Assembly (NCBI RefSeq): GCF_002243045.1
Contig: NZ_MBKP01000041.1
Coordinates: forward strand, 1-33,393
DNA length: 33,393 nucleotides
Direction: 5' to 3'
DNA from: Methanolobus psychrotolerans
GTDB taxonomy: Archaea > Halobacteriota > Methanosarcinia > Methanosarcinales > Methanosarcinaceae
Shown piece by piece: positions 12,752-18,558 of the stretch (positions within the stretch are counted from its first letter, which is position 1; the number at the start of each line of letters is the position of its first letter). Made by a program: the position numbers and the translations under genes. Below the pieces are notes generated by a model. The model did not search any database. It was given only the letters and a program-made list of their open reading frames with translations, and was not told where the DNA came from.

Positions 12752-12774
12752 AAATTATAACGCCATTATAATTT
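12752..12774. promoter_or_regulatory. 23-bp AT-rich palindrome (copy 1)
   Basis: AAATTATAA and TTATAATTT form perfect 9-bp arms around CGCCA. The same palindrome is conserved in copy 2 at 18536-18558. It is centred about 67 bp upstream of the copy 1 TATA box. The preceding AACGTTGTTG is also identical in both copies. It is probably a regulator-binding site, though it could instead act as TATA elements in both directions. Confidence 0.55.
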
Positions 12775-12835: not shown

Positions 12836-12856
12836 TGTAAGATTGAGAAAGAAACG

Positions 12857-13012
12857 TCGGTCTCAATTGAGCATATATATGGGTTGGGGACTGGAGAGTT
12901 CTCAAGCAATTGGGGGTACATAACTTGTTTCAAAAATCGTTTCCTGTAAGTCTGTAGGATATCAACCAACCTCTATAGTCAAAAAAGGAAAGTAGGATTT
13001 TTGAAACAAGTT
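12857..13012 (+). ncRNA. Candidate structured RNA / leader, copy 1
   Basis: The predicted transcript begins at about 12857 and includes the 34-nt G-rich block at 12884-12917 (starting TTGGGGACTGG). It ends in a hairpin with 17-bp perfect arms at 12922-12938 and 12996-13012 (outer part AACTTGTTTC/GAAACAAGTT). An inner TTTCCT/AGGAAA pairing (12940-12945 with 12986-12991) extends the stem. The matching hairpin in copy 2 has compensatory changes at two base pairs and one A-U to G-U change. That supports selection on pairing. The ends are estimates. It may be a free RNA or the 5' leader of the downstream small genes. Confidence 0.5.
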
Positions 13013-13061: not shown

Positions 13062-13172
13062 ATGGCAATAATAAAGAACACAGAAGGAACAAAAGCAGAA
13101 GAAATGGAAAAAGCAAATAGATTAAGAAAGTCGTATCGGAATCTATTAAAAAATGAAAGGTCCATCACATAA
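13062..13172 (+). CDS. Possible 36-aa lysine-rich peptide
   Basis: ATG 13062 opens a 36-residue frame beginning MAIIKNTEG, rich in Lys, Glu and Arg, and ending with TAA inside the first 15-bp repeat unit at 13166. No clear ribosome site precedes it. It follows the structured RNA candidate directly and could be its first reading frame. A longer frame on the opposite strand (12962-13198) overlaps it. I do not recognise either. Composition alone resembles small soluble stress peptides; support is weak. Confidence 0.28.
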   Translation: MAIIKNTEGTKAEEMEKANRLRKSYRNLLKNERSIT

Positions 13173-13210
13173 AAATCCTCCACATAAAAATCCTCCACAT
13201 AAAATCCGTC
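13166..13210. repeat. 15-bp tandem repeat, three units
   Basis: CACATAAAAATCCTC occurs at 13166-13180 and 13181-13195, then a degenerate third unit (CACATAAAATCCGTC). On the minus strand each unit reads as GAGG, then ATTTTTATG, resembling a ribosome site plus start. On the plus strand each junction gives CCTCC, an anti-ribosome-site sequence. The function is unknown. Confidence 0.75.
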
Positions 13211-13284
13211 CTCCTATAACTATGGATTCGTGGGAGTACTAACTTCCACTATTTTTTTATAAAGGTGTTTTGGAAGGATAACTG

Positions 13285-13426: not shown

Positions 13427-13582
13427 ATGGCAAATTTAATAGGACTAGCTATTATATTCCTGGTACTGGCTTTTATTGCCTATGTATTGGGTGCACGTGG
13501 GGTTGCCGGATTTTCGATGGGTATCGCAAAGTGGCTTGTGGTAATCTTTGTAATACTGGCGATAGTAACGTTCATCCTGTGA
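13427..13582 (+). CDS. DUF1328 / UPF0391 (YtjA-like) small membrane protein
   Basis: 51 residues, nearly all hydrophobic, with two transmembrane helices separated by the conserved glycine-rich turn ([16 protein letters not shown]). This is the DUF1328 pattern. In bacteria the family is small, widespread and often associated with stress; the mechanism is unknown. An AAGGAGTGG ribosome site lies 7 nt before the ATG. It is the first convincing gene of the rightward island group and precedes the repeat peptide and CsbD. A bacterial origin is likely, judged from family distribution. Confidence 0.85.
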
Positions 13583-13651: not shown

Positions 13652-13774
13652 ATGAAAGAAGAACAGTTGAACAAGATCACTTCGAGCGATCTGAAGAAGA
13701 TCACTTCGAATGATCTGAAGAAGGTCACTTCGAATGATCTGAAGAATGTCACTTTAGAACCAAAGAAAAAATAA
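13652..13774 (+). CDS. 40-aa micro-protein made of octapeptide repeats
   Basis: The frame starts at ATG 13652, with GAGGT 6 nt upstream. After MKEEQ it consists of the octapeptide pattern (K/N)K(I/V)TSxDL. There are three full copies and a partial fourth, then a LEPKKK tail. The DNA repeats with a 24-bp period, AAGATCACTTCGAATGATCTG-like units with few changes. It is highly charged and has no membrane segment. I know of no such family. The good ribosome site and position between DUF1328 and CsbD support translation. The near-identity of units suggests recent expansion. Confidence 0.55.
   Translation: MKEEQLNKITSSDLKKITSNDLKKVTSNDLKNVTLEPKKK
13658..13756. repeat. 24-bp tandem repeat within the micro-protein
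   Basis: About 3.6 units with core ATCACTTCGAATGATCTGAA at 24-bp spacing (units near 13670, 13694, 13718 and a partial at 13742). The changes are few: AGC or AAT, ATC or GTC, AAG or AAT. The period is a multiple of three, so the reading frame is kept. Confidence 0.8.
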
Positions 13775-13940: not shown

Positions 13941-14120
13941 ATGAAAACAAGCAGAACGGATAAAGTGGAAGGAACGATTCACAAAGTGAAGGGAGGGGTC
14001 AAAGAGACTGTAGGTGAACTCACAAATAATCCCCACCTGGAAGCCGAAGGTAAGGTTGAAAAGGCCAAAGGCAAAGCACAAGAAAAGGTAGGTCATATCA
14101 AGAAGGTATTGGGGAAGTAA
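13941..14120 (+). CDS. CsbD-family stress protein
   Basis: 59 residues. It shows the CsbD pattern DKVEGTIHKVKGGVKETVGE, then a repeat-like second half (EAEGKVEKAKGKAQEKVGHI). CsbD proteins are small, hydrophilic, highly charged bacterial general-stress proteins of unknown mechanism. AAGGCGAG lies just upstream of ATG 13941. The gene follows DUF1328 and the repeat peptide on the same strand, forming a small stress group. A bacterial origin is likely. A short GGCG/CGCC hairpin at 14127-14141 may end the transcript. Confidence 0.88.
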   Translation: MKTSRTDKVEGTIHKVKGGVKETVGELTNNPHLEAEGKVEKAKGKAQEKVGHIKKVLGK

Positions 14121-15596: not shown

Positions 15597-16001
15597 TCAT
15601 AATTTGGTTGGATACTTGACGGCCAGAGCTCTTATTATACCTAATGAGAACAACAATATCGAGAGGCCTAGAACAAATGGATAATCAAATCTTTGGGCAT
15701 ATACCCCTACCGCAATTTCACGCATGACTATCAAAATCGTAGCATCGGTTACATATGTAATTCTAATCTCTTGATGTTCACGATAATCAATAAAAGTCTT
15801 GAAAAGATCAATCAGAACAAAAATTGTGAGGACACTGGATACTATCTGACCAAAACCACCCCCAAGAGTCCCAAATAGTATTGAGTTGATATCCTGGAGG
15901 ATATGTATGACCCCCACAAATAGGGCCAGTAGCAGTATATAAAGGATGACTATAGTGACTAAATCAATAACTATCTTAAATATTTTATCCTGACTTATCA
16001 T
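15597..16001 (-). CDS. PsiE-family (phosphate-starvation-inducible) membrane protein
   Basis: 134 residues with four hydrophobic helices: about 12-34, 43-66, 87-101 and 110-127. The polar loop FIDYREHQEIRITYVTDAT is the family's most recognisable part. PsiE is named for phosphate starvation induction in E. coli; the molecular role is unknown. The ATG at 16001 lacks a near ribosome site. A leftward TTATAATG box near 16043 suggests a short leader. It lies 78 nt downstream of the amylase gene on the same strand. Confidence 0.83.
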   Translation of the reverse strand: MISQDKIFKIVIDLVTIVILYILLLALFVGVIHILQDINSILFGTLGGGFGQIVSSVLTIFVLIDLFKTFIDYREHQEIRITYVTDATILIVMREIAVGVYAQRFDYPFVLGLSILLFSLGIIRALAVKYPTKL

Positions 16002-16078
16002 ATATGTTTTGTAATGAACTCGTATTTCACTCCCCCCATTATAATTTGTTCAATTAAAGCTTCTTTAACGCTTTTGTC

Positions 16079-17527
16079 CTATTCTTTTTTTGTATAGCAG
16101 GAAACCGAACCTCCAGAAACCTGAAATACCCCCTTTCCGAGTTCATCAATAACTACTTCTGCAGGATTATCGCCCAGACGGTCAATCCATATCTCACCTG
16201 AATGGATCTTCCCTACATACATCTCCTTTTCTCCGTCTGATCCGTTAGTTAATACTACGGCGCAGCCGTCAGGATGCTCTTTGGTTCCAAGCCTTGTCCA
16301 TCCGATCGTATTTTCATGGTCAAGGTAGTCCTCTTGTGTTCCGTAGGCATTCTCTTTTCTGATCCGGATCAGATTGTCAATAACGTTTCGAATTGGCATG
16401 TACTCTTCCACATTAGCAATTCCATAGTAATCCCCGAAAAATATCGCAGGGAAGCCATCCTTCCTTAACAAGATCAATGCATATGCCAACGGCTTGAACC
16501 AATCCTCCACAAAGGATTCTAATGCCTGCATCGGTTGTGAGTCGTGGTTGTCTACAAAGGTTACTGCAAGCTGGGGATGGGTCTGGACTAATGAATTGTC
16601 GAAAATTGTCCTCATATCAAACTTGTTACTCTCTTTAGACGCCCTGTAGAAGTTAAAATGCAGTGAAACATCGAACATATCCAGAAGATGTTCTTCTATA
16701 TCCAGATAATCGTCTAATACTTCATGGTTTGATTGCCAATACTCGCCTACAACATAGAACTCTTCACCCTGCTCATTTTTAATGAACTTTAAGAAGCCTC
16801 TGATAAAATCCTGATTTATATGCTTGAGCGCATCAATTCTTACACCATCGATCCGTGTTTCATTTACAAACCACTTAAACCATTTGTATATTTCATTTTT
16901 AACGTCCGGGTGATTAAAATCAATATCTGCAAACATTAAATAATCAAAGTTGCCGAGGTCTTTATCAACATTCTCTGCCCAATCCTTGTTGTCTCCGAGA
17001 ATTTTATAGACGGCAGTCTTCCCGTTTGCGTTATTGTAATCAATACCGGTAAAATGTTCAAAGGACCATTTAAAATCAGAATATTTATTATTTCTTCCCG
17101 GGAAGGTGAATTTAGTCCAGCCTTTAACATCATAAGGCTCTGAAATAACTTTGGTTCTATTGTTAATTTCAACTTCCATTACTTTAAAGGTCTGGGTTTC
17201 ATCGCTTCCAGCTTTATGGTTAAGCACTATGTCAGCATATACCTGTATTCCGTTTTCATGCAGTGCATTAATAGCTTCGATCAGCTCATCTTTAGTTCCA
17301 TACTTCGTTCTTACGGTACCCTTCTGGTCAAATTCTCCCAAATCATATAGATCATAAACAGCATAACCTGTATCACTGGAAGAAGTACCTTTGAAACAAG
17401 GTGGTATCCAAACAGCCGTAATCCCCAGTTCACTTAAATGAGGGGCGTCAGCTTTTAAGTTTTTCCAATGTTGACCATCATTTGCCATTGCATATTCAAA
17501 ATATTGCATCAGTATACCGTTTCTCAT
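16079..17527 (-). CDS. Cytoplasmic alpha-amylase (GH13, AmyA-like)
   Basis: 482 residues. All four GH13 regions are visible: DIVLNH (99-104), GVRIDALKH with nucleophile Asp232, VVGEYW with acid/base Glu262, and FVDNHD with Asp329. The opening GILMQYFEYAMANDGQHW and lack of a signal peptide match the E. coli AmyA cytoplasmic type. It should hydrolyse alpha-1,4 glucan, such as intracellular glycogen. A GGTGG ribosome site precedes ATG 17527. The overall pattern is bacterial, suggesting transfer. Neighbours are phasin-like and PsiE genes, so storage or stress carbon use is a reasonable guess. No glycogen synthesis genes lie in the window. Confidence 0.95.
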   Translation of the reverse strand: MRNGILMQYFEYAMANDGQHWKNLKADAPHLSELGITAVWIPPCFKGTSSSDTGYAVYDLYDLGEFDQKGTVRTKYGTKDELIEAINALHENGIQVYADIVLNHKAGSDETQTFKVMEVEINNRTKVISEPYDVKGWTKFTFPGRNNKYSDFKWSFEHFTGIDYNNANGKTAVYKILGDNKDWAENVDKDLGNFDYLMFADIDFNHPDVKNEIYKWFKWFVNETRIDGVRIDALKHINQDFIRGFLKFIKNEQGEEFYVVGEYWQSNHEVLDDYLDIEEHLLDMFDVSLHFNFYRASKESNKFDMRTIFDNSLVQTHPQLAVTFVDNHDSQPMQALESFVEDWFKPLAYALILLRKDGFPAIFFGDYYGIANVEEYMPIRNVIDNLIRIRKENAYGTQEDYLDHENTIGWTRLGTKEHPDGCAVVLTNGSDGEKEMYVGKIHSGEIWIDRLGDNPAEVVIDELGKGVFQVSGGSVSCYTKKE

Positions 17528-17792: not shown

Positions 17793-18134
17793 TTATTCTG
17801 CACTTTTCTGCTGGTTCTTCATCTTTTCAAGCGCAGCTTCAAGTTCCTTGATTTTGAGTTCCTTGATCCTGTCCTCAAGGTCTGAGAGTTCCTTATCAGT
17901 TTTCAGGACTATCGTATGTATCTTTTCAACAACGTTCTTCTCCAGGCTAAGTCTCTGTTTATTGATTTCGCTAACCAGATCTTCTGCCAAAGCCTTACCC
18001 TCTTCCATGCTCAGAGTACCTGCATCAACCTTTTCTTTAACGAAATCCCTTATTCTTTCTTCAGACAAAGCTGCTAATCCTACACCTATCAGTGCAGCTG
18101 CTCCAAGAATACCTACTTTTGTCATTTTGTCCAT
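17793..18134 (-). CDS. Phasin-like coiled-coil protein (COG3937 type)
   Basis: 113 residues. A short hydrophobic N-terminus (KVGILGAAALIGVGLAAL, residues 6-23) is followed by a long amphipathic helix and a Leu/Glu/Lys coiled coil (about 65-108, ending KMKNQQKSAE). The layout resembles COG3937 'polyhydroxyalkanoate synthesis regulator phasin' proteins. I see no PHA synthase, so granule binding is not shown. The hydrophobic N-terminus could anchor it to membrane or a lipid surface. GGGGG lies 7 nt before ATG 18134. A leftward TATATAAA box near 18200 gives it its own promoter, inside the region downstream of module copy 2. Confidence 0.6.
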   Translation of the reverse strand: MDKMTKVGILGAAALIGVGLAALSEERIRDFVKEKVDAGTLSMEEGKALAEDLVSEINKQRLSLEKNVVEKIHTIVLKTDKELSDLEDRIKELKIKELEAALEKMKNQQKSAE

Positions 18135-18330: not shown

Positions 18331-18455
18331 GCTTATTTCAAAAATCCTACGTTAATCTTATGAATAACAGATAATGACTTTTGAAATAAGCTTTAGAACC
18401 CACAATTGCTTTAGAACTCCCCAGTCCCCAATCCGCACGCATGTTCGATTGAGAC
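18331..18455 (-). ncRNA. Candidate structured RNA / leader, copy 2
   Basis: The predicted start is about 18455, 25 nt after the TATA box. The conserved G-rich block at 18398-18431 is followed by a hairpin with 16-bp arms at 18376-18391 and 18331-18346 (outer part GCTTATTTC/GAAATAAGC, one G-U pair). The loop is 29 nt against 57 nt in copy 1. Compared with copy 1, an A-U pair becomes G-C and a G-C pair becomes A-U. A 31-codon frame (18442 to 18347, starting MRADWGLGSS) overlaps the same region, so a leader peptide is an alternative. Confidence 0.5.
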
Positions 18456-18535
18456 AGAATTTCTTTCTCAACATTATATAAGTATGATCGTTTATTTATT
18501 TAACATAATTTGAATAAAACATTAAACGTGCTATC

Positions 18536-18558
18536 AAATTATAATGGCCTTATAATTT
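18536..18558. promoter_or_regulatory. 23-bp AT-rich palindrome (copy 2)
   Basis: AAATTATAA and TTATAATTT flank TGGCC. The arms are identical to copy 1 (12752-12774). It is centred about 70 bp upstream of the copy 2 TATA box, nearly the same spacing as in copy 1. Confidence 0.55.

Follow-up and report, generated by a model that had tools for sequence, protein, structure and literature searches.

The window, by which we mean the whole 33,393-nt stretch of Methanolobus psychrotolerans DNA analysed here (contig NZ_MBKP01000041.1), carries two copies of a real and previously uncatalogued folded RNA of Methanolobus, one on each strand. The features of the two copies and of the small genes that accompany them are as follows.

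12752-12774, plus strand: upstream palindrome of copy 1, AAATTATAA-CGCCA-TTATAATTT, a putative regulator site, from a pattern search of the genome
12802-12813, plus strand: copy 1 TATA-like box, which nearly all aligned loci share at this distance of 50 nt from the palindrome start
12838-12909, plus strand: RNA core of copy 1 (hairpins I and II), scoring 86.2 bits with covariance model R1, in whose training set it is included
12841-12868, plus strand: hairpin I (P1) of copy 1, from the fold and cross-species covariation
12884-12905, plus strand: hairpin II (P2b) of copy 1, with a G-rich loop and the core motif GGTTGGGGACTGG, from the fold and orthologue comparison
12922-13012, plus strand: long hairpin III of copy 1, with 17-bp arms (12922-12938 pairs exactly with 12996-13012)
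13062-13172, plus strand: 36-aa ORF directly downstream of copy 1, judged by eye to be of equal length in the Methanolobus orthologue L004
13230-13249, plus strand: terminator-like hairpin followed by a T run, a plausible end of the copy 1 transcript, of a kind no commoner in the scanned region than in shuffles
13427-13582, plus strand: gene for a DUF1328 small membrane protein (Pfam PF07043, E 3e-13)
13941-14120, plus strand: gene for a CsbD-like stress protein (Pfam PF05532, E 4e-18)
17793-18134, minus strand: gene for a 113-aa protein downstream of copy 2, with an orthologue behind the homologous RNA in L011
18224-18249, minus strand: terminal hairpin (P4) of copy 2, GGAGGATGG-CTCTTGC-CCATCCTTC, recognized by reading and common to other loci
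18331-18391, minus strand: long hairpin III of copy 2, with 16-bp arms (18391-18376 pairs with 18346-18331)
18406-18476, minus strand: RNA core of copy 2 (hairpin I, 18448-18472; hairpin II, 18410-18431), 79.7 bits with R1, copy 2 likewise being in the training set
18497-18508, minus strand: TATA-like box of copy 2, at the 50-nt offset from the palindrome start
18536-18558, minus strand: upstream palindrome of copy 2, from the pattern search of the genome

Several further elements lie close by. Three tandem repeats of about ACATAAAAATCCTCC follow the 36-aa ORF (13168-13212), and genes for a PsiE-family protein and an alpha-amylase are located between the two modules (15597-17527). Small ORFs with Lys/Glu-rich repeats (KKITSNDLKK..., KKAEEAKKAEEA...) and a hydrophilin-like composition adjoin RNA modules in the window (13652-13774) and at loci L009 and L095; at L095, where the RNA copy is truncated, a GGGGAGTGG motif directly before a small ORF could act as a ribosome-binding site. 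No tRNA or tmRNA turned up when the window was scanned for them.

Alignment of the two copies shows that their similarity begins about 100 nt upstream of the RNA, takes in the perfect 9-5-9 palindrome and continues through two short hairpins into hairpin III. Taken whole, both modules fold more than five standard deviations below shuffled sequences (z-scores of -5.17 for copy 1 and -5.48 for copy 2, with none of 200 dinucleotide shuffles equally stable), and most orthologues also have negative z-scores, some of which are not significant singly. An earlier note on this DNA had proposed a structured RNA on the strength of the long hairpin, and this proposal is borne out: re-reading of the sequence gives the arm lengths that the note had claimed (17 and 16 bp), and the three arm changes between the copies (A-U to G-C, G-C to A-U and A-U to G-U, one each) all keep the pairing. 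The note's TATA box stands only in part, as a TATA-like box does lie approximately 25-30 nt before hairpin I, but TTATATAA, near the RNA start, is not the box shared by the family. Hairpin III, on which the note had concentrated, is less conserved than any other part of the RNA, and it is hairpins I and II that form the family core.

The order of elements in the module is the palindrome AAATTATAA-N5-TTATAATTT, the TATA-like box, hairpin I, hairpin II with its G-rich loop and then further hairpins. Nearly every locus has its TATA-like box 50 nt from the start of the palindrome, with hairpin I a further 25-30 nt or so downstream. Minimum-energy folds of several orthologues predict an outer helix around hairpin II, formed between the linker and a downstream GUGG; such a helix would explain why linker and GUGG are both conserved. 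By eye, UUGAGA could alternatively pair with the 3' arm of hairpin II. Hairpin III is restricted to the duplicated copies. A different long hairpin, GAAAATGG...CCATTTTC, stands behind hairpin II in Methanomethylovorans and in other Methanolobus loci, and remnants of it persist in L005, L011 and copy 2, so that hairpin III seems to have been added. A GGATG..CATCC terminal hairpin, often with a U-rich tail, closes many loci, copy 2 among them.

Searching at the DNA level brought up a third copy in this genome, as well as homologues in further genomes from the family. The palindrome pattern AAATTATAAYNSCNTTATAATTT has six sites in the 3.16-Mb genome, compared with none for a reversed control, and an RNA copy lies downstream of all six, the RNA being diverged at the three newly found sites. 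The covariance model of hairpins I and II, whose training set includes two of those three copies, reports five of the six; the sixth (L020) is too diverged. DNA similarity, palindrome pattern and covariance model, the search tools from which the copy number derives, thus give at least six copies of the RNA in M. psychrotolerans. Among 112 genomes of the family the palindrome clusters in Methanolobus and Methanomethylovorans, and relatives of the window RNA are found in other Methanolobus and in Methanomethylovorans. M. vulcani and M. bombayensis are among the Methanolobus species with type-1 copies. Across the order (186 Methanosarcinales genomes, strict filters) R1 matches nine genomes of three genera, the third genus being represented by a single marginal match, the only one outside Methanolobus and Methanomethylovorans. 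A palindrome match in WOR-3 (L114) has no RNA and was taken as chance. At three palindromes (L075, L076 and L078, in genomes G042 and G045) apparent short hairpin RNAs lie on one or both sides, and this group includes a small GGNGTGGGAC...terminator-like RNA on the opposite strand.

With one tRNA excepted, neither the window nor any of 18 sources with relatives of the RNA had a match to an Rfam 15 family at its gathering score, and Rfam searches by E-value returned chance matches only. Absence from Rfam 15 makes this a new RNA family, its general type being that of a structured leader or sRNA. The coupling of operator, leader and micro-protein gene described below is unusual.

An alignment of 12-14 sequences taken alone gave no convincing covariation beyond that of shuffles; covariation emerged once the diverged loci to which the palindrome had led were included. 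With hand-assigned arms, a choice that favours the structure, and a permutation that ignores relatedness, the arms of hairpin I pair at 85.0% with their own partners compared with 74.9% when permuted (0 of 20,000 permutations as high), or at 89.2% compared with 77.5% when each group is reduced to one representative (13 diverse loci; again 0 of 20,000), while hairpin II, whose G-rich loop is kept, has weaker covariation support (338 of 20,000). For hairpin III the figure is 30 of 20,000. Arm pairs of hairpin I that change with pairing kept include GATTGAGA/TCTCAATT, CCGATTGAGA/TCTCGATTGG, GCGATTGGGA/TCTTAATCGC and ATGATCGGAC/GTCCGGTCAT. The earlier note had held that homologues whose arm substitutions broke the pairing would speak against its reading as a small RNA or riboregulatory leader. 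Pairing is in fact preserved in homologues, since more than one standard pair type occurs at all ten pair positions of hairpin I and 97.2% of the cells of hairpin III are paired in 11 copies, and at the level of sequence that reading is supported. The idea that the RNA contains a conserved reading frame was also weighed and, by eye, dropped, as start codons and frames are not kept.

These data bear on the view that only the promoter and palindrome were spread by duplication and that the RNA is a functionless by-product. Some 200-300 nt of upstream DNA was duplicated too and is also alike between copies, as such a view would have it, but pairing in hairpin I has been kept through two-sided changes at many positions in distant orthologues, which is strong evidence to the contrary, and hairpins I and II persist while the surrounding sequence has diverged. 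We therefore consider a by-product RNA very unlikely.

In all 29 loci the transcribed strand folds more stably than the complement, by a mean of 10.6 kcal/mol, and hairpin III contains 13 G-U cells compared with two A-C cells. Together, the G-U preference and the difference in stability between sense and antisense indicate selection on one RNA strand. This is not what would be expected of a mobile or repetitive DNA element, a MITE- or REP-like hairpin instead of an RNA gene, as several copies per genome and long hairpins might suggest. Such an element is further contradicted by the oriented promoter and gene context that the copies retain and by hairpin III itself, which is not a dispersed repeat: its arms are found paired in the genome only at three copies of the module. 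The MITE reading was rejected on this last ground, and we regard any element of this sort as highly improbable.

In most species the RNA forms a leader of 230-320 nt before a tiny zinc-ribbon gene, ZnR1, encoding 44-54 aa with the pattern CPxC...CxxCGYWT. ZnR1 lies 310-400 nt from the palindrome in most single-copy loci, usually followed by ZnR2 (about 41 aa), and several of these loci are opposite an ATP-grasp gene. ZnR1 is present in 97 of the 112 family genomes. The duplicated copies precede other genes: a small charged ORF and/or a DUF1328/CsbD cluster (window copy 1, L004, L014), the 113-aa protein (window copy 2, L011) or a PRC-barrel protein (L003, L010). The position of a 5' UTR is thus conserved, before ZnR1 in most loci and before stress-type genes in duplicated ones, with L022, L075 and L078 as exceptions. 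Leaders of other kinds were seen before ZnR1 as well: Methanolobus paralogues of the gene (L161-L166) have a second conserved leader, AGTGGGAATTGAGCCATCTGGCTCAA ... GGCCTG, which looks unrelated and is without a palindrome, and ZnR1 leaders of Methanococcoides (L156, L158) retain a GTTTGGGGAGTGGG core beyond the reach of the covariance model. No sequestration of the ZnR1 ribosome-binding site by the leader was visible.

The exceptions are important in considering whether the RNA might instead be mainly a trans-acting sRNA or a protein-binding decoy, its repeated G-rich loops following a CsrB-like logic and the downstream genes being passengers or read-through products. L022, in the same genome as the window, has no downstream gene on its strand, so that a purely cis role is not general, and the minimal L075 and L078 look like short stand-alone RNAs. 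The terminal hairpin with a U-rich tail recurs, stems change while G-rich loops stay constant, and in Methanolobus psychrophilus R15 conserved cold-induced transcripts are classed as sRNAs, some cold-induced sRNAs being confirmed by northern blot (PMC5378194, in the part of that report drawn on here). However, most copies are directly upstream of a gene, and ZnR1 follows very different leaders across clades, which fits a leader; a mainly trans-acting RNA therefore seems to us rather unlikely.

Bacterial cold-shock leaders of the cspA type are long, structured 5' leaders before a small protein and take part in cold control. Here too a long structured leader precedes a small protein, which probably binds nucleic acid, and cold control is possible; the difference is that this protein is a zinc ribbon whereas cspA encodes a cold-shock domain. 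ZnR1 and ZnR2 resemble the zinc-finger micro-proteins of Haloferax, which, in the part of the report used here, have one domain with paired Cys-x2-Cys motifs and are linked to stress adaptation (PMC6562870); ZnR1 differs in that its likeness to Pfam zinc-ribbon families is only sub-threshold.

Within the genus, the same portion of the R15 report describes nine sRNAs that are highly conserved, induced by cold and preceded by a 'cold box' motif, and some genes whose 5' UTRs are longer in the cold (PMC5378194). As there described, the R15 sRNAs resemble the window RNA in genus, in being multicopy conserved intergenic transcripts and in having a conserved motif upstream of the promoter. We take genome G044 to be that of R15; the positions of its four TRAM genes agree with the gene numbers given in PMC5572242. 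In G044 and seven related genomes ZnR1 has a structured leader (model R2) that differs from the window RNA in sequence, and in R15 also in fold, yet is preceded at the same TATA offset by an operator-like sequence. In R15 this sequence is a diverged version of the palindrome and scores poorly under the type-1 palindrome weight matrix. Five leader matches and six ZnR1-like places were found in G044, compared with the nine published sRNAs; the R15 loci in question are at G044 positions 243025, 2063399, 2862623, 2928075, 2931249 and 2932992. No match was obtained with a narrow-gapped pattern of the R15 leader, which reflects a limit of the pattern, and the palindrome weight matrix gave no convincing site before the cold-only TRAM genes of R15, where the reported AT-rich repeat was not convincingly matched either. 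The agreement in genus, copy behaviour and architecture, as far as that portion of the R15 report describes them, makes it likely but unproven that the window RNA family and the cold-box sRNAs are the same.

Our current working hypothesis, which we consider probable, is that the RNA is a palindrome-controlled structured 5' leader, probably induced by cold or stress and also able to be a stand-alone sRNA; it probably belongs to a cold- or stress-response circuit. In the model that we infer for its induction, its start and end and its mode of action, each copy would couple transcriptional control to an RNA. The 9-5-9 palindrome, some 70 bp before the start, is probably the binding site of a regulator which, to judge from M. 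psychrophilus, would activate an archaeal TATA promoter in response to cold or related stress. The transcript, with a predicted start near 12837 (plus strand) in copy 1 and near 18473 (minus strand) in copy 2, would open with hairpin I, followed by hairpin II with its G-rich loop (in several orthologues inside the outer helix), then by at least one long hairpin and, in many of the copies, by the terminal hairpin and U-rich tail. It would act mainly as a 5' leader, most commonly before ZnR1 and usually then ZnR2; a stand-alone sRNA would be released where transcription stops early at the terminal hairpin or where no gene follows. The whole module appears to have been duplicated in Methanolobus before other small stress-type genes, the window copies presumably gaining hairpin III. 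The RNA itself would most likely serve to control expression post-transcriptionally in cis, with folding of the leader setting read-through, stability or translation. It is tempting to speculate, although we hold it to be possible and no better than doubtful, that the module is a portable archaeal stress cassette, in which one palindrome-binding regulator and one structured leader, spread by duplication, place unrelated stress-protective genes under joint control at the transcriptional and RNA levels, the RNA either sensing temperature or being bound by its zinc-ribbon protein in autoregulation.

To our knowledge, few structured regulatory leaders are known in archaea. The window RNA has covariation support, near-constant promoter spacing and up to six or more copies per genome, and it may be connected with a set of cold-induced sRNAs that has been published but not characterised. 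Should the R15 sRNAs belong to the same family, the present data would supply a structure, a promoter element and a candidate protein partner for them and would suggest that some 'sRNAs' are leaders of unannotated zinc-ribbon genes of 45-55 aa; control of cold adaptation in methanogens then becomes a directly testable question. Two further observations concern the genome taken as R15. At L170 (G044, 2931249-2931821) tandem, partly degraded copies of ZnR1 stand behind one leader, and L105 and L244 near G044 2934070 are related stand-alone RNAs that share GCGGGT, GGAGTGG and a terminal hairpin, GAGGCGCC...GGCGCCTC, and come from M. psychrophilus and a relative (G064).
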